A stretch of 10,949 bases of DNA from Lentzea aerocolonigenes (GTDB taxonomy: Bacteria > Actinomycetota > Actinomycetes > Mycobacteriales > Pseudonocardiaceae), in NCBI RefSeq assembly GCF_000955955.1, contig NZ_JYJG01000541.1, positions 1 through 10,949 on the forward strand, given 5' to 3'. Every line of letters starts with the position of its first letter. Position 1 is the first letter of the stretch. The notes beneath the pieces are model-generated. The model did not search any database and had not been told where the DNA came from. It worked only from the letters and a program-made list of their open reading frames with translations. This document shows, piece after piece, positions 4,266 through 10,886 of this stretch. Position numbers and translations under genes: made by a program.

Positions 4266-4756
4266 GAACCGCTGCGGCGCAACCACTCCTGGCCGATCTC
4301 GCGACCGTCCGGCACCAGCGGCCAGCCGGGGTCGTCGATCTTGCCGCGCAGCTCGCCGAGGTCCATCCACCCGCCCCAGGCGACCTCCTCGGGCTGGTGG
4401 GTGAACGGGCCGTCGGTGCGCGTCTCGTAGACCCACGCGTGATAGCGGGTCTGCTCATCGACGTAGGTGGTCTGGAAGAGGAACGTCAGGGGCGCCTCGA
4501 CGCCGAGTTCTTCGCTCAGTTCGCGCCGGGCTGCCACGTCCGGGGTCTCGCCCGCGTCGATCACGCCACCGGCCGCGTAGTCGTAGAGACCCGGGAAGAC
4601 GTCCTTGGTGTCGGTGCGGCGGTGCACGTAGACGCGTTCGCCGTCCGAGGAGAACACGACGGTCAGGACGCAGCCGTGCCAGAGGTTCTCCGCCCGCATG
4701 CGCTCGCGGGTCACCTCGCCGATCACGTTCGCGTCCTCGTCGTAGAGGTTGATCAT
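4262..4756 (-). CDS. Nudix hydrolase, YfcD-like
   Basis: Predicted cytoplasmic pyrophosphohydrolase acting on a nucleoside diphosphate linked to another group. The 164-residue protein contains a complete Nudix box (G-x5-E-x7-RE-x2-EE-x-G): Gly64, Glu70, Arg78-Glu79, Glu82-Glu83 and Gly85, so the metal-binding glutamates are intact. The N-terminal layout (YDEDANVIGEVTRERMRAENL, then an HRRTDTKD-like segment at 45-52) resembles the YfcD branch, which is related to isopentenyl diphosphate isomerase in fold. It lacks evidence for the isomerase activity itself. The ATG is supported by a strong AGGAGG 8 bases upstream (plus-strand 4765-4770). It is transcribed divergently from the ABC permease and converges on the response regulator with a 4-base overlap. 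The substrate cannot be assigned. Confidence 0.9.
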   Translation of the reverse strand: MINLYDEDANVIGEVTRERMRAENLWHGCVLTVVFSSDGERVYVHRRTDTKDVFPGLYDYAAGGVIDAGETPDVAARRELSEELGVEAPLTFLFQTTYVDEQTRYHAWVYETRTDGPFTHQPEEVAWGGWMDLGELRGKIDDPGWPLVPDGREIGQEWLRRSGS

Positions 4757-4826
4757 CCCGGGGTCCTCCTGTGGTCGTACGCGAGCTTGCTACTTCAGTC
4801 CGACGCCCGCTGATCGTCTCCCTTCC

Positions 4827-4832
4827 TACCTT
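4827..4832 (+). promoter_or_regulatory. Candidate -10 hexamer of the ABC permease gene
   Basis: TACCTT fits TANNNT and is the same hexamer as in the candidate cellulase promoter. It would give a leader of about 25 bases carrying the AGGAGG at 4854-4859. No convincing -35 was found. The 107-base gap between the divergent Nudix and permease starts must hold both promoters. Confidence 0.3.
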
Positions 4833-4863
4833 CGTGAGGGTCAGACGTCACCGAGGAGGATTC

Positions 4864-7263
4864 GTGTCCACTTCCCTGCGGCTCGGCGTCGCCGAGTTCC
4901 GCGCCCGGCCGGGTCGCGCGCTGCTGCCCGGCGTCGCGCTCGTCGTCGGCGTGGCCTGCCTGCTGGCCGCCCTGGTGCTGAGCGACGCGCTCACCAGGTC
5001 GGTCGACGAGGGCGCGCCCCTCACCCCGTCCACGGTGAGTCACGTGGTGGACGTGAAACAACAGCCCTACGACAGCAACGCCACCGAGGCGAACCGCCCG
5101 AAGCTGGACGCCGCGTTGCTCGCCAAGCTCTCCGCGGTCGGCCGGGCGGTGCCGGTGCAGGAGGCGAAGGCCGACCTGCTCGACAGCAACGGCCGTGCGG
5201 GGGAGCACCGGGCCGAGGTGCAGGTCCAGCAGCCGGACCTGGTGCGCTGGCCGCTGGCCGAGGGCAAGGCCCCGGCCGCCGACAACGAGGTCGCCGTCGA
5301 CAAGATCACCGCGTACGAACGCGGTCTCAAGCCCGGTGACAAGGTCAAGCTCGCCGCCGCGGACGGCAAGCCGTTCGACGTGACGGTCAGCGGTGTCATG
5401 AAGAAGGGCGGGATGGACTCGCGGCCGATCCTGGTCGCGGGGCCCGCTCTGGCGAGCAAGCTCGACCCCGAGCCGTTCACCAAGGAGATCTGGGTCATCG
5501 GCGGTGCCCGCGATGCCGTCGCGAGCGCGGCGGGGGCCTCGTACGTCGTGTGGGACCCGGCGCCGGACGCCGACAAGATCGGCAACGACCTGACGTTCAT
5601 CCTGCTGCCGTTCAGCATCCTCGCGCTGGCCACGGCGGTGTTCGTCGCCGCGGCCACCTTCCGCGCCGTCTACGCGCAACGTCAGCGGCAGACGGCGTTG
5701 CTGCGGTGCATCGGTGCCCAGCGCGGGCCGTTGGTGCGCAGGAGCCTGTTCGAGGCGCTGATCACGGGTGCTCTGGCGGGCGTGGGTGGCGCGCTGCTCG
5801 GCGGGCCGATGGCGTGGGTGCTGGCGCGGACGTTCGACGTCACCGGCATCTCCGCGTTGTTCGGCGCCGTGGAGCTCAGCCCGGAACTGCTGCCGTCGCT
5901 CGGGTACGTGATCCTCGGAGTTGTCGTTGCCGCGCTGTTGAGCGTGATGGCCGCAGTCCGGCCCGCGATCAACGCCGCGCGCGTCTCGCCGTTGGCCGCG
6001 TTGCGTGACGCGGAGAACGAGGTGCCGCCACGGTCCGTGCGTCGCTTGCGGCTCGTGTTCGGCCTGCTGTTCACCGCCGGCGCGGCGCTGCTGGCGATGG
6101 TGGCCATCGCCGCCAAGGGCACGACCGCGGCGCCCCTGTCCGTCACGTTCTCCGCGATCGCCGCGGTGACCGGCCTGTTCTGGATCCTCGGCCCGGTCAC
6201 CGTCCCGTTCATCGCGCGCCTGTTCGGCAAGATCGGCGGCACCCAGTGGAAGCTCGCCGGCGCCGAGGTGCGCCGGATGCCGCAGCGGTCGGCGTCGGTC
6301 GCGCTGCCGTTGCTGCTGGCCAGCTCGATGGTGACGTTCTTCCTGGTCGTGCTGGGTGGCGTGCAGGACGTGGCGTCGGCGTACGCCAACGAGAAGCGCC
6401 CGGACGCCACCGTGGTCGACGCGGGTGGCCGGGCGCTGCCCGACATCCCGGCACAGGCGGACGCCGAGGCGAGCGTCGCGCTGCACAAGACCGAGGAGGA
6501 CGGGCCGCTCGGCGCCGACCCCGGGCAGCTCAAGGCGTGGCTCAAGGCGCAGGACGTGTCCGTCACCGACCAGTTCGTCTCCGGGACCGCGCTCGTGCCG
6601 GAGCACTGGGCGGACAAGCCGTACGTCGAGTTCGGCGGCAAGCAGTACGAGGTCGTCGGCACCGTGCCCGGCAGCCTCACCGGCTTCACGCCGATCATCG
6701 GCGGCCAGACCTCGGGGCCTGTGGAGAAGGTGTTCGTCGCGCTGAAGCCGGGCGTGGACCCGGCCCAGTTCCGGGCTCAGCTGCAGTCCGCGCTGCCGAA
6801 CAACCCGACCGTGATCGTGCGGACGGACGCGGACGAGCGCGCCGAGGCCGACCGGTACATGCACCTCGGCACCGTGCTGATGATGGTGTTGCTCGGCCTG
6901 TCCGTGGCGGTCGCCGTGACCGGTATCGGCACCGCGCTGACCATCTCGGTGCAGGAACGCCGCAAGGAGCTCGCACTCAGGCGCGCCTTGGGCGTCACTC
7001 AAGGCGGGCTGCAGGGCGGAGTCATCGCTGAAGCGGTCATGCTGGCCCTGGTCGGGGTGATCGGTGGCGGAGTGCTCGGGTTCGGTTACGCGGAGATCGC
7101 GATCCTGTCGACCGGCATCGACATGTCGCTGCCAGGCTTGAAGGTCGTGTTGCCGCTGGTCATCGGGGCTTCGGTGGTCGTGGCGCTCGCGGTCGTGGCG
7201 GCTTTCGGGCCTTCTCGCGGTGCTTCTCGGATTCGCCCCGCAGCAGGACTGGCATCCGGGTGA
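4864..7263 (+). CDS. FtsX/MacB-type ABC transporter permease
   Basis: Large membrane subunit of an ABC system of the MacB/LolC-like (FtsX-domain) class, which usually moves lipids, peptides or drugs, or transmits force to cell-wall enzymes. The 799-residue protein has helix 1 at about 20-41, a periplasmic core domain (42-242), a first FtsX domain with three helices (about 243-370, including the [16 protein letters not shown] coupling region at 273-288), two more helices (395-452), a helix at 478-503, a second extracytoplasmic domain (about 504-664) and a second FtsX domain (about 667-790, with [14 protein letters not shown] as its coupling segment). This duplicated layout is normal for actinobacterial members. 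GTG at 4864 follows AGGAGG by 4 bases. Such permeases normally sit beside an ATPase gene, but none is present here: the upstream neighbour is a Nudix gene on the other strand and the downstream one is dop. Confidence 0.92.
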
Positions 7264-7268
7264 ATAGG

Positions 7269-7302
7269 GTGAGGGGAGCTTCAACTCGGAAGCTCCCCTC
7301 AC
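7269..7302 (+). terminator. Hairpin terminator after the ABC permease gene
   Basis: A perfect 14-bp stem (GTGAGGGGAGCTTC and its exact complement) encloses a 6-base loop and starts 5 bases after the permease stop. There is no strong T-tract behind it, which is common for actinobacterial terminators. It separates the permease from the dop promoter box, which begins 5 bases further on. Confidence 0.75.
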
Positions 7303-7307
7303 GCTGG

Positions 7308-7330
7308 TTGTCAGGGGCAGGTCATAAGGT
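7308..7330 (+). promoter_or_regulatory. PafBC/RecA-NDp-like promoter of dop
   Basis: TTGTCAGGG (7308-7316), 8 bases, then TAAGGT (7325-7330). The mycobacterial RecA-independent damage promoter is TTGTCRGTG-N8-TANNNT; this copy differs at one box position (G for T at position 8) and keeps the spacing exactly. The hexamer ends 7 bases before the ATG of dop at 7338, with no Shine-Dalgarno sequence between, so the transcript is predicted to be leaderless. Confidence 0.55.
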
Positions 7331-7337
7331 GTTGCGT

Positions 7338-8831
7338 ATGCGGCGGATCATGGGAACCGAGGTCGAGTACGGCATCTCAGTGCCGGGCGACGCGACCGCG
7401 AACCCGGTGCTCACTTCGACACAGGTGGTGCTCGCGTACGCGGCGGCGGCGGACATACCGCGCGCCAGGCGTGCCAGGTGGGACTACGAGGTGGAGTCAC
7501 CGCTGCGCGACGCGCGCGGGTTCGACCTGGGCAGCCCCGGTGGCCACCCCGCCGACTCCGACGTCGAGGACCTGGGCGCGGCGAACGTCATCCTCACCAA
7601 CGGCGCGCGGCTCTACGTCGACCACGCGCACCCCGAGTACTCGGCTCCCGAGGTCACCAACGCGCGCGACGCGGTGATCTGGGACAAGGCGGGGGAGCGG
7701 GTGATGGAGGAGGCCGCGCTGAAGGCCGCCACCGTGCCCGGCCAGCCCCGGCTGCAGCTGTACAAGAACAACGTCGACGGCAAGGGCGCGTCGTACGGCA
7801 CGCACGAGAACTACCTGATGCAGCGGTCGACGCCGTTCACCGCGGTGATCGCCGGTCTGACGCCGTTCTTCGTGTCGCGCCAGGTCATCACCGGTTCCGG
7901 TCGCGTCGGCATCGGGCCGTCCGGCGAGGAGGCGGGCTACCAGCTCTCGCAGCGCGCCGACTACATCGAGGTCGAGGTCGGCCTCGAGACGACGCTCAAG
8001 CGCGGCATCATCAACACGCGCGACGAGCCGCACGCGGACGCGGACAAGTACCGCCGCCTGCACGTCATCATCGGCGACGCGAACCTGGCCGAGTACTCCA
8101 CGTACCTCAAGGTCGGCACGACCTCGCTGGTGCTGGACATGATCGAGTCCGGGCTGCGGTTCGACGACCTGCGCATGGTCGACCCGGTGCGCGCGGTGCA
8201 CCAGATCAGCCACGACCCGACGCTCAAGACCAAGGTCGAGATGACCGGCGGGCGCAAGTTCACCGCTCTCGACGTGCAGTTCGCCTACCACGAGCGCGCC
8301 GCCGCGTTCGTCGAGAAGGAGGGCATCGGCGACCGCGATGTCCTGCGCGTGTGGGGCGAGGTGCTCGACGCGCTGGCCCGCGACCCGGCGGAGTGCGCCG
8401 ACCGGCTCGACTGGGTCGCGAAGCTGCGGCTGCTCGAGGGCTACCGGCAGCGCGACGGCCTGGAGTGGGGCGCGGCCCGGCTCAAGCTGGTCGACCTGCA
8501 GTACTCCGACGTCCGGCTGGACAAGGGCCTCTACAACCGCCTGGTCGCGCGCGGCTCGATGAAGCGCCTGGTCAGCGAGGAAGAGGTGCGCGCGGCCATC
8601 ACCACGCCGCCCGAGGACACGCGTGCGTACTTCCGCGGCCGGTGCCTGGAGCGCTACCCGACCTCGGTCGCGGCTGCATCGTGGGACTCGGTGATCTTTG
8701 ATCTCGGTCGAGAATCTCTCGTGCGGATTCCCACGCTGGAGCCGCTGCGAGGCACGAAAGCGCACGTCGGAGCCCTTCTGGAGGCCTCTGACACCGCCGA
8801 GCAGCTGGTGGACGCGCTGACTCGCGGGTGA
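7338..8831 (+). CDS. dop: Dop, Pup deamidase/depupylase
   Basis: Dop converts the C-terminal Gln of Pup to Glu, making Pup ready for ligation by PafA, and also cleaves Pup from modified proteins. It is a cytoplasmic enzyme of the carboxylate-amine ligase (glutamine synthetase-like) fold that binds ATP. The 497-residue product, close to the usual length of about 500, carries the N-terminal metal/nucleotide motif GTEVEYG (6-12), [17 protein letters not shown] (48-64) leading into the variable Dop loop, and the catalytic Asp95 in [13 protein letters not shown], at the same number as in the mycobacterial enzyme as I recall it. Further signatures are [27 protein letters not shown] and a near-terminal [13 protein letters not shown] at 7338 ([12 protein letters not shown]) matches known Dop starts and the predicted leaderless promoter; ATG at 7350 is an alternative. 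pup follows 79 bases after the stop. Confidence 0.97.
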
Positions 8832-8857
8832 TCGTCTACCCGAGTGGCTCAGGATTT

Positions 8858-8880
8858 TTGTCGGTGCCGCTGGGTAGTGT
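8858..8880 (+). promoter_or_regulatory. PafBC/RecA-NDp-type promoter of pup-prcB-prcA
   Basis: TTGTCGGTG (8858-8866), exactly 8 bases, then TAGTGT (8875-8880). This fits the TTGTCRGTG-N8-TANNNT consensus at every position. It lies in the 79-base dop-pup gap. Transcription would begin near 8887, giving a leader of about 24 bases that contains the GGAGG at 8901-8905 in front of the pup ATG. Confidence 0.7.
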
Positions 8881-8910
8881 TCTTGTCAGGCGAGTCAGTG
8901 GGAGGCCGAG

Positions 8911-9105
8911 ATGTCCCAGGAACAGAAGCAGCGCCAGGGTGGTGGCGACGGCGACGAAGGTGCCGAGGGCGCTGCCGGAGCAGGTCAGGAACGCCGCGAG
9001 AAGCTCGGCGAGGACGTGGACGCGATCCTCGACGAGATCGACGACGTGCTCGAGGAGAACGCGGAGGACTTCGTCCGCGCATACGTGCAGAAGGGTGGTC
9101 AGTAG
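8911..9105 (+). CDS. pup: Pup, prokaryotic ubiquitin-like protein
   Basis: Small, mostly disordered protein tag that is linked through its C-terminus to lysines of target proteins and guides them to the Mpa/ARC ATPase and the 20S proteasome. The 64-residue length is typical. The N-terminus is low-complexity and Gly/Asp-rich, used to start unfolding. The C-terminal half is the highly conserved region: [10 protein letters not shown], then [20 protein letters not shown], which forms the coiled-coil contact with Mpa, ending in Gly-Gly-Gln. The final Gln means that it must be deamidated by Dop before use. The start is fixed by GGAGG five bases upstream. It is the first gene of the pup-prcB-prcA unit and is immediately followed by a small hairpin. 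Confidence 0.98.
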
Positions 9106-9119
9106 GCCTTCGGGGGCCT
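9104..9119 (+). repeat. Small hairpin between pup and prcB
   Basis: AGGCC (9104-9108) pairs with GGCCT (9115-9119) around a 6-base loop (TTCGGG); one T-G wobble pair could extend the stem inward. It begins in the pup stop codon. There is no T-tract, so full termination is unlikely; it could act as a weak attenuator or an mRNA-processing or stabilising element that sets Pup above proteasome subunits. The function is inference. Confidence 0.4.
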
Positions 9120-9155
9120 GCCGACCATCTTCGGGGACGGGAGAACAACCAACAC

Positions 9156-10004
9156 ATGGACAACAGCTCGACCGGGCGTTACCCGGCCGCGGCGCTGCCT
9201 CCGGCGTACCTGACGCCCGGCTCGTCGTCGTTCACGGACTTCTTGCGTGCACAGGCACCCGACATGCTGCCTTCCGGCCGCAAGCTCCCGGAGGGGACCG
9301 TCCAGGCCCCGCACGGGACGACGATCGTCGCGGCCACCTACAAGGGCGGGGTCGTGATCGCCGGTGACCGGCGCGCGACGATGGGCAACGTCATCGCCCA
9401 GCGCGACATGAAGAAGGTCTTCGTGACCGACGACCACTCGGCCGTCGGCATCGCGGGCACGGCGGGCATCGCGATCGAGATCGTGCGGCTGTACACGGTC
9501 GAACTGCGGCACTACGAGAAGATCGAGGGCGTCTCGCTGTCGCTCGACGGCAAGGCCAACCGTCTCTCGGCCATGATCAGGGGCAACCTCGACGCGGCCA
9601 TGGCCGGCCTCGCCGTGGTGCCCCTGTTCGCCGGGTACGACACCTCGGCCACGGACTCGGACCGCGCGGGCCGCATCGTCTCCTACGACGTCACCGGTGG
9701 CCGCTACGAGGAGTCGCAGGGCTACCAGGCGGTCGGCTCGGGCTCGCTCTTCGCGAAGTCGGCGCTGAAGAAGCTCTACGACCCGGACGCCGACGCGGAC
9801 GCCGCGATCCGTTCGGTCGTCGAGGCGCTGTACGACGCGGCGGACGACGACTCGGCCACCGGCGGCCCGGACCCGGTCCGCCGCCTCTACCCGGTCGTGG
9901 TCACCATCAACGGCGCCGACGGCGCCGTCGAGGTCCCGGATTCGCAGGTCGCCACGGTCGCGGACGCGGTCGTCGAAGGCCGCCGGTCCCGCCCCGCAGG
10001 CTGA
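9156..10004 (+). CDS. prcB: Proteasome beta subunit PrcB
   Basis: Catalytic subunit of the 20S proteasome core, forming the two inner heptameric rings. The 282-residue precursor has a 54-residue propeptide containing the conserved [16 protein letters not shown] (23-39), removed by autocleavage at APHG/TTIVA. The exposed Thr55 becomes the N-terminal nucleophile; mature Asp17 (Asp71 in AGDRR) and Lys33 (Lys87 in MKKVF) complete the active site. Other family marks are [11 protein letters not shown], a YDTSATD segment, the [18 protein letters not shown] region and [20 protein letters not shown] at 9156 is used because the propeptide then has the usual length; longer versions of the frame overlap pup. 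The nearest purine-rich site, GGGAG, is about 12 bases away, so initiation looks weak. prcA begins 35 bases after the stop. Confidence 0.97.
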
Positions 10005-10039
10005 GTCCCGATCCTCTTCTGACGTCAGGAGCACCACCC

Positions 10040-10807
10040 ATGACGATGCCGCTGTACGCATCGGCAGAGCAGGTGATGCGCGACCGCTCCGAGTACGCCC
10101 GCAAGGGCATCGCCAGGGGTCGCAGCGTCATCGTGCTGAAGTACGCGGACGGCATTCTGTTCGTCGCGGAGAACCCCTCGAGCACGCTGCACAAGGTCTC
10201 GGAGATCTACGACCGCATCGGCTTCGCGGCCGTGGGCCGGTACAGCGAGTTCGAGAACCTGCGGCAGGCCGGAATCCGGTTCGCCGACGTACGCGGGTAC
10301 CAGAACGACCCGCGCGACGTCACCTCCCGGTCGCTGGCGAACGTGTACGCCACGACCCTGGGCACCTACTTCACCGAGCAGATCAAGCCGTTCGAGGTGG
10401 AGATCTGCGTGGCAGAGGTGTCGGACTCCGCCGACACGGACACGTTGTACCGGTTGACGTACGACGGGTCCATTGTGGACGAACCGCAGTACATCGTGAT
10501 GGGTGGCACTGTGGATGCCGCGAACGCCGCCCTGAAGGAGGCGTTCGCCGACGGGCTTTCGCTGGCTGAGGCGGTTCCTGTCGCTGTCAAGGCGTTGTCG
10601 GCTGGGTCGCCGTCCACCGGGAACGGTGCGGCGGAGATTTTGCCGGCTGCCAAGCTTGAGGTCGCGGTGTTGGAGAGGGCTCGGCCGAGGAGGGCGTTCC
10701 GGCGGATTGCTGGGGCGGCTTTGGACGGCTTGATGCCGGCGGCCACCAAGGGTGGGAAGGCTGTGGAGGACGTGCAGCTGCCTGATGGTGGGGATGACGC
10801 GAAGTAG
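10040..10807 (+). CDS. prcA: Proteasome alpha subunit PrcA
   Basis: Non-catalytic subunit forming the outer rings of the 20S proteasome; its N-termini gate substrate entry and its surface docks the Mpa/ARC ATPase ring. The 255-residue protein has the gating N-terminus and the first helix ([21 protein letters not shown], residues 5-25), then [31 protein letters not shown], a FADVRGY segment, [16 protein letters not shown] and [16 protein letters not shown], all alpha-subunit signatures. The end contains RPRRAFRRI followed by a variable tail rich in Lys, Gly and Asp. AGGAG 8 bases before the ATG at 10040 supports this start; ATG at 10046 is an alternative. It is the last gene of the unit. From about residue 165 onward its codons become richer in T and G at the third position than in the first two thirds. 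Confidence 0.97.
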
Positions 10808-10863: not shown

Positions 10864-10886
10864 TTGTCAGGGGTGCTGAGTACGTC
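10864..10886 (+). promoter_or_regulatory. Third PafBC/RecA-NDp-like promoter, for a gene leaving the window
   Basis: TTGTCAGGG (10864-10872), 8 bases, then TACGTC (10881-10886). The box is identical to that of dop, the spacing is the same, and the hexamer keeps TA but ends in C. A GTG (10894) follows after exactly 7 bases and opens a frame that stays open to the window end (MRWVRRVRRW...). Another start is ATG at 10934, preceded by AGGTGG. The gene cannot be identified from so few codons. Confidence 0.4.

Follow-up and report, generated by a model that had tools for sequence, protein, structure and literature searches.

The window analyzed here, a stretch of 10,949 bases from Lentzea aerocolonigenes, is one entire contig (C208) of a 10.25-Mb genome. 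Its right end carries, in this order, dop, pup, prcB, and prcA, genes of the Pup-proteasome system, and the gap between dop and pup contains an exact copy of TTGTCRGTG-N8-TANNNT, the motif of the RecA-independent DNA-damage promoters (RecA-NDp) that PafBC activates in mycobacteria. This pup box is probably a PafBC-dependent promoter that drives pup-prcB-prcA, so that PafBC-activated promoters would feed the Pup-proteasome system. In the same genome, a second exact copy stands before mpa, the gene for the proteasomal ATPase, and this copy is better conserved among relatives than the one at pup.

The pup box spans positions 8858-8880 on the plus strand and reads TTGTCGGTG CCGCTGGG TAGTGT. All 12 specified positions of the motif match, as the preliminary description of this DNA had stated. 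The -26 element, TTGTCGGTG (8858..8866), lies where relatives show a peak of column conservation at the same spacing, and the -10 element, TAGTGT (8875..8880), is directly preceded by CTGGG. The hexamer at the -35 position (17-nucleotide [nt] spacing) is GGATTT, i.e., there is no canonical -35 element. The box fits within the 79-nt gap between the dop stop codon, which ends at 8831, and the pup ATG at 8911. The distance from TAGTGT to this ATG, previously given as 24 bases plus a Shine-Dalgarno site, is 30 nt in total, consisting of 19 nt, the Shine-Dalgarno sequence GGGAGG (8900..8905), and another 5 nt. The pup gene (8911..9105) encodes 64 amino acids with a C-terminal GGQ (Pfam PF05639, E = 1.8e-22) and is followed in line by prcB (9156..10004) and prcA (10040..10807); both match PF00227 and, judging from gene order, we take them to encode the proteasome beta and alpha subunits, respectively. 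The upstream gene at 7338..8831, a Pup_ligase family member (PF03136, E = 5.3e-190) that is 97% identical to dop of Lentzea sp. NBRC 102530, was identified as dop, of the Pup deamidase/depupylase type, because of the gene order and because the second family member, on contig C82, is pafA. All these genes are on the plus strand. Neither a sigma-70-like promoter nor a terminator-like site was found by a site scan of 8780-10060, and pup and prcB therefore appear to form one operon. An Rfam scan of the window yielded nothing at gathering scores.

The occurrence of the motif, scored throughout as matches out of the 12 specified positions, was compared with chance expectation. With up to two mismatches allowed, the window contains four matches, against a mean of 0.32 in shuffled sequences, and none of 200 shuffles reached four. 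One of the four, at 10864-10886 behind prcA (two mismatches), was dropped because L059, the one Lentzea locus examined for it, shows no site of ≥10/12 from position 7300 on. The complete L. aerocolonigenes genome holds 11 exact matches compared to none for a reversed-pattern control, and 59 compared to 11 when one mismatch is allowed. Across 90 genomes of the family (Pseudonocardiaceae), 591 exact matches were counted against 9 reversed controls, with at least one match in 79 genomes. The motif sites are non-random and not due to chance. Six of the 11 exact sites precede genes for uvrA, a PcrA-type helicase, mpa, pup, a ClgR-like regulator, and a YgjP/SprT-like protein, and two more precede genes for proteins of 130 and 281 amino acids, both without a Pfam match. 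Among the one-mismatch matches listed (11 of 19 chosen loci; the genome has 48 such sites), sites precede radA, ligA, recQ, a gyrB/parE-type gene, and genes for an OB-fold protein and a DUF3263 protein. Several family matches of these neighboring genes concern reading frames truncated at the end of the locus and do not reach the curated cutoffs.

The mpa gene (TIGR03689) is preceded by TTGTCGGTG ATCGCCGG TACCGT, an exact 12/12 match (L166:3057-3079, equivalent to G000:C573:25556-25578) that ends 32 nt before the ATG. Its conservation was traced in the upstream DNA of pup and mpa from 70 of 80 genomes (30 taken as loci and 40 chosen to spread over genera), that is, 57 family genomes from 25 genera and 13 genomes of two other families; this set may overlap the labeled set described below, and its family and genus names are our reading from labeled relatives. 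Among the 57 family genomes, the mpa box scores 12/12 in 26, 11/12 in 22, 10/12 in 1, 9/12 in 4, and ≤8/12 in 4, so that at least 11/12 is reached in 48 genomes and in 19 of the 25 genera. The best score at mpa in the 13 genomes of the other families is ≤9/12. Three genera without a recognizable mpa box (g11, g12, and g18) also carry pafB. In an alignment of one genome per genus (24 genera), anchored on GGTACCGT, whose columns are thereby fixed, the columns of TTGTCGGTG are 67 to 100% a single base and the free spacer columns 83 to 100%, whereas upstream columns mostly stay below 60%; conservation returns around the Shine-Dalgarno site. The pattern GTCGGTGNNCGCCGGTACCGT occurs in 67 of 87 family genomes, one copy each, compared to 4 of 310 genomes from elsewhere in the order. 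For 51 family genomes, the positions of both the pattern and mpa are listed, and in every one of them the pattern precedes mpa on the mpa strand, at a distance of 30 to 34 nt in 46 and of 127 to 129 nt in 5; none of the 4 outsider copies is followed by an Mpa-like start. An overlapping gene was also considered as the cause of this conservation and rejected, given that between 0 and 5 open frames cross the box among 56 genomes (a comparison of frame numbers).

The regulator is encoded in the same genome. On contig C82, pafA (L167:8955-10313, minus strand) is followed, three other reading frames downstream, by pafB (5397-6362) and pafC (4423-5400), in agreement with the earlier remark that pafBC is normally located near pafA. 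PafB contains WYL and WCX domains and PafC contains HTH_PafC, WYL, and WCX domains; an NCBIfam search assigned no family to either protein. The best structural match of PafB is the Mycobacterium smegmatis PafB (7p5x, E = 2.6e-86), with 46 identical residues among the first 66 and 24 of 29 at positions 38 to 66. Of the 80 genomes searched, 79 have pafB, among them every family genome (n = 66); the one without it is a 2.3-Mb genome of another family (f7).

PafBC is reported to bind single-stranded DNA and then to let sigma-A polymerase use the -26 element instead of a -35 element (PMC11804915). Passages of PMC8223512 further describe 26 M. smegmatis regulon proteins, including RecA, as pupylation targets and state that RecA returns to prestress levels only when pupylation and the proteasome are intact. 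Transferred to Lentzea, single-stranded DNA accumulating after damage would lead PafBC, together with sigma-A RNA polymerase, to recognize the -26 element TTGTCGGTG, with PafBC standing in for the missing -35 contact. Transcription would then start from TAGTGT, approximately 24 nt before the pup ATG, and pup, prcB, and prcA would be read as one transcript. The same switch would act on mpa/arc, with its better conserved box, and also on dop in a minority of species. In much of the family, the damage response would thus induce both the repair genes and the Pup-proteasome that later removes damage-induced proteins, providing a built-in shutoff. The activation mechanism and the proteasomal clearance of RecA are taken over here from the M. 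smegmatis work; that these promoters respond to damage through PafBC is what we infer.

Several observations weigh against this account. Under the conditions tested, deletion of pafBC in M. smegmatis left the levels of Dop, Mpa, PrcA, and PrcB, as well as pupylation, unchanged (PMC5656591). In L. aerocolonigenes, pafA carries no box (best score, 8/12), and some of the motif sites do not appear to belong to repair genes: among the exact sites, one coincides with a contig end, a second stands 91 nt upstream of what we read as a secreted glycosidase-like frame, and a third (L006) seems to fall inside a membrane-protein frame; among the one-mismatch sites, one lies at a PaaN-like aldehyde dehydrogenase frame (L147), and L143, L151, and a pair of facing sites on contig C570 show no evident repair gene. 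Within the family, 11 of the 90 genomes are devoid of any exact motif match, the mpa box scores below 11/12 in 9 of the 57 genomes, and the exact pup box is nearly confined to Lentzea and decays beyond the genus, with 25 of the 57 genomes scoring ≤8/12 at pup. The L. aerocolonigenes genome also yields 15 WYL-domain matches, so that other WYL regulators exist in it. Finally, the mpa spacer ATCGCCGG is nearly invariant over the 24 genera, almost as conserved as the box itself (its last two bases being fixed by the anchor). Such conservation is not explained by PafBC, whose promoters allow any 8 bases, and a second factor may therefore share or own the mpa site.

The WYL-domain matches and the conserved mpa spacer, which suggests the involvement of more than PafBC, fit an explanation in which the box is a standing promoter, either expressed constantly through PafBC and sigma-A or served by a ClgR-type or other WYL regulator, and the proteasome genes are not induced by damage. 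According to reports cited in PMC5656591, ClgR recognizes promoters of this P1 class in mycobacteria, and prcB and prcA are induced when ClgR is conditionally expressed, which points in the same direction. Nevertheless, we consider this explanation unlikely, because the identical word precedes repair genes of this genome and because all 66 family genomes searched contain PafB. The M. smegmatis deletion result, taken together with the scores of ≤9/12 at mpa in the f7 genomes (n = 11, taken as Mycobacteriaceae), agrees with a difference between lineages.

The preliminary description had proposed to compare the dop-pup gap among sister species, and the outcome is divided: within Lentzea the box is fully retained, but beyond the genus its exact form is nearly absent. 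It scores 12/12 in all three labeled Lentzea and in all five other genomes of the genus (the two groups may overlap). In a labeled set of 80 loci, in which pup was located in 79, the exact box is limited to the window, the three Lentzea, and one Pseudonocardiales metagenome-assembled genome; among the 57 family genomes, all 12/12 pup sites belong to the genus of the window. These numbers could mean that the pup box arose recently and locally in Lentzea and has no role outside the genus. Degenerate boxes argue against this idea, which we regard as quite improbable. In the labeled family sequences, the window included, 23 of 39 score ≥9 and 14 of 39 score ≥10 (2.6% and 0.33% in shuffles). The corresponding numbers are 17 and 13 of 18 for Nocardia (shuffles, 7.6% and 0.83%) and 6 and 4 of 23 for other Mycobacteriaceae-type loci (shuffles, 4.9% and 0.35%). 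Among the 57 family genomes, 32 reach ≥9 and 22 reach ≥10 (shuffles, 2.5% and 0.18%); the matches at ≥9/12 come from 16 of the 25 genera, and 29 of the 32 start 49 to 58 nt before the ATG. The mpa box, present in 19 genera, likewise speaks against a local role. In the two other families, 4 of 13 genomes score ≥9/12 at pup. A first pup scan of the 70 loci, in which 3 were without a start and 7 had a doubtful one, tested 49 of the 57 family genomes; a repeat with a better start rule that kept all 57 gave the same picture. A few genomes additionally have a second Pup copy. Degenerate boxes are plausible sites, given that the motif in Mycobacterium tuberculosis is itself described as degenerate (TGTCGG, TGTCAG, or TGTCAC, followed by N10 and TANNNT; PMC8151990).

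Three further observations concern loci of relatives. A Mycobacterium locus (L111) and a Mycobacteroides locus (L114) carry CCGTCGGTG or TCGTCGGCG, N8, and TAGGCT before pup (10/12), and mycobacteria may thus not lack the pup box altogether. Among 30 pup loci (L029-L058), 24, mostly from one genus of another family (f13), have a best site that begins with TCGTC and has N8 and a TA...T hexamer at the same spacing (8 to 9/12), which possibly reflects a diverged -26 element or shared ancestry. The record labeled Rhodococcus rhodnii NRRL B-16535 (L065) has a dop that is 86% identical to that of the window, compared to 73 to 75% in other Rhodococcus records; it is perhaps mislabeled or mixed and was counted with the window's family.

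The architecture of the degenerate sites was examined by aligning pup upstream sequences from outside Lentzea on the -10 element (GGTA....T), which was possible for 35 of 53 sequences, i.e., two-thirds of the set. Because this anchor fixes GGTA and the final T, the other columns alone count as evidence. Among these, the columns of TTGTCGG peak at exactly the RecA-NDp distance, and no comparable peak is seen at -35. The CTGGG context is only weak evidence, since, where more than one anchor was available, the choice favored certain three-base contexts (CTG and CTC, for example). That the box is a usual housekeeping sigma-A promoter whose likeness to RecA-NDp is accidental is hardly credible: TAGTGT is acceptable as an actinobacterial -10 element, and before dop the -10 alone is conserved in most species, but the scan of 8780-10060 revealed no sigma-70-like site, GGATTT occupies the -35 spacing, conservation peaks at -26 and not at -35, and exact matches in the family outnumber controls 591 to 9. 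Two other promoter types were considered and set aside. A LexA SOS box, GAACNNNNGTTC (GAAC-N4-GTTC), has no exact match in the window or in the mpa locus (L166). A sigma-F/B-type promoter, whose motif we take to be GTTT followed by GGGTA, was suggested by the GGGTAG context; however, GATT is what stands in the window at the 15-nt spacing, and relatives show no T-rich peak at -35.

The remaining genes of the system are less uniform. A near match, TTGTCAGGG-N8-TAAGGT (11/12), lies just before the dop ATG at 7308..7330 on the plus strand but is weakly conserved, scoring 10, 8, and 9 of 12 in the three labeled Lentzea. At ≥10/12, dop boxes were found in 8 of 39 family loci, the window included (shuffles, 0.15%), namely, in Lentzea, Saccharothrix, Actinokineospora, and one Saccharopolyspora, and in none of 42 other loci. 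Given these numbers, dop was reduced from a full third target to a partial one; with conservation across species that covers its -10 element but mostly not its -26 element, it serves as a partial negative control. The absence of a box at pafA and the restriction of the dop box to a minority indicate that the Pup-proteasome system is not uniformly wired. The earlier proposal that one switch governs both repair and degradation genes is partly supported: at the level of motifs, it fits repair genes, pup, and mpa, does not extend to pafA, and extends to dop only in a minority. A broader proposition is that PafBC of Pseudonocardiaceae acts directly on the degradation arm of the response it controls, activating mpa and pup-prcBA across a large part of the family and dop in a few members, such that the switch would encode its own shutoff; to us, this appears evenly balanced. 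If true, it would provide a reason for the position of pafBC in the Pup-proteasome locus and would imply a reduced wiring in Mycobacterium, with substrates as the sole link between regulator and proteasome.

Compared with mycobacterial RecA-NDp promoters, such as recA P1, the pup box has the same -26 element, N8 spacing, and -10 form, likewise without a -35 element, and pafBC is present here too, with a closely similar PafB N-terminal domain. The differences are that the box here precedes pup-prcBA and mpa and that the mpa spacer is conserved. Passages of PMC8223512 on the M. smegmatis PafBC regulon mention genes for repair, ergothioneine, and sigma factors but none for the proteasome, and neither prc nor mpa occurs in the main text of a study of M. 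tuberculosis (PMC8151990). Outside mycobacteria, Streptomyces promoters of the same class precede different targets, recA and SCO6735, the latter of which is UV inducible (PMC5087735, PMC9411070). A direct link between PafB and a pupylation gene has been claimed in M. smegmatis, where Korman et al. (2018) reported PafB regulation of pafA, a claim that is disputed (cited in PMC6466877); the L. aerocolonigenes pafA is without a box, as noted above. The literature searched (including PMC6789036 and PMC9380542, with the 2018 regulon and 2021 sigma-adaptation papers and the supplements outside its scope) contains no description of the box at pup or mpa. Apparently, this is a known promoter class with a conserved, so far unreported target set. 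In a family neighboring the mycobacteria, PafBC-type promoters conserved at mpa and pup would represent a direct, testable link by which one activator serves repair as well as the removal of the proteins involved in it, and what has been concluded from M. smegmatis may not apply to actinomycetes that produce antibiotics.

Some of the other exact sites in the genome have features of their own. One (L008:1501-1523) lies 31 nt before the gene for the ClgR-like regulator, an assignment below the curated cutoff (127.9 versus 170 bits). PafBC might thereby reach the proteasome by a second, indirect route, since ClgR reportedly induces prcB and prcA in M. tuberculosis (cited in PMC5656591). The uvrA site (L002:1501-1585) consists of the exact RecA-NDp box with a GAAC-N4-GTTC site downstream, which also served as a positive control for the LexA search; this double site resembles the dual control described in mycobacteria. 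Finally, two exact copies of the motif (L001:1501-1570 and L003:1501-1568) are accompanied by similar downstream stretches and are perhaps part of a dispersed repeat.
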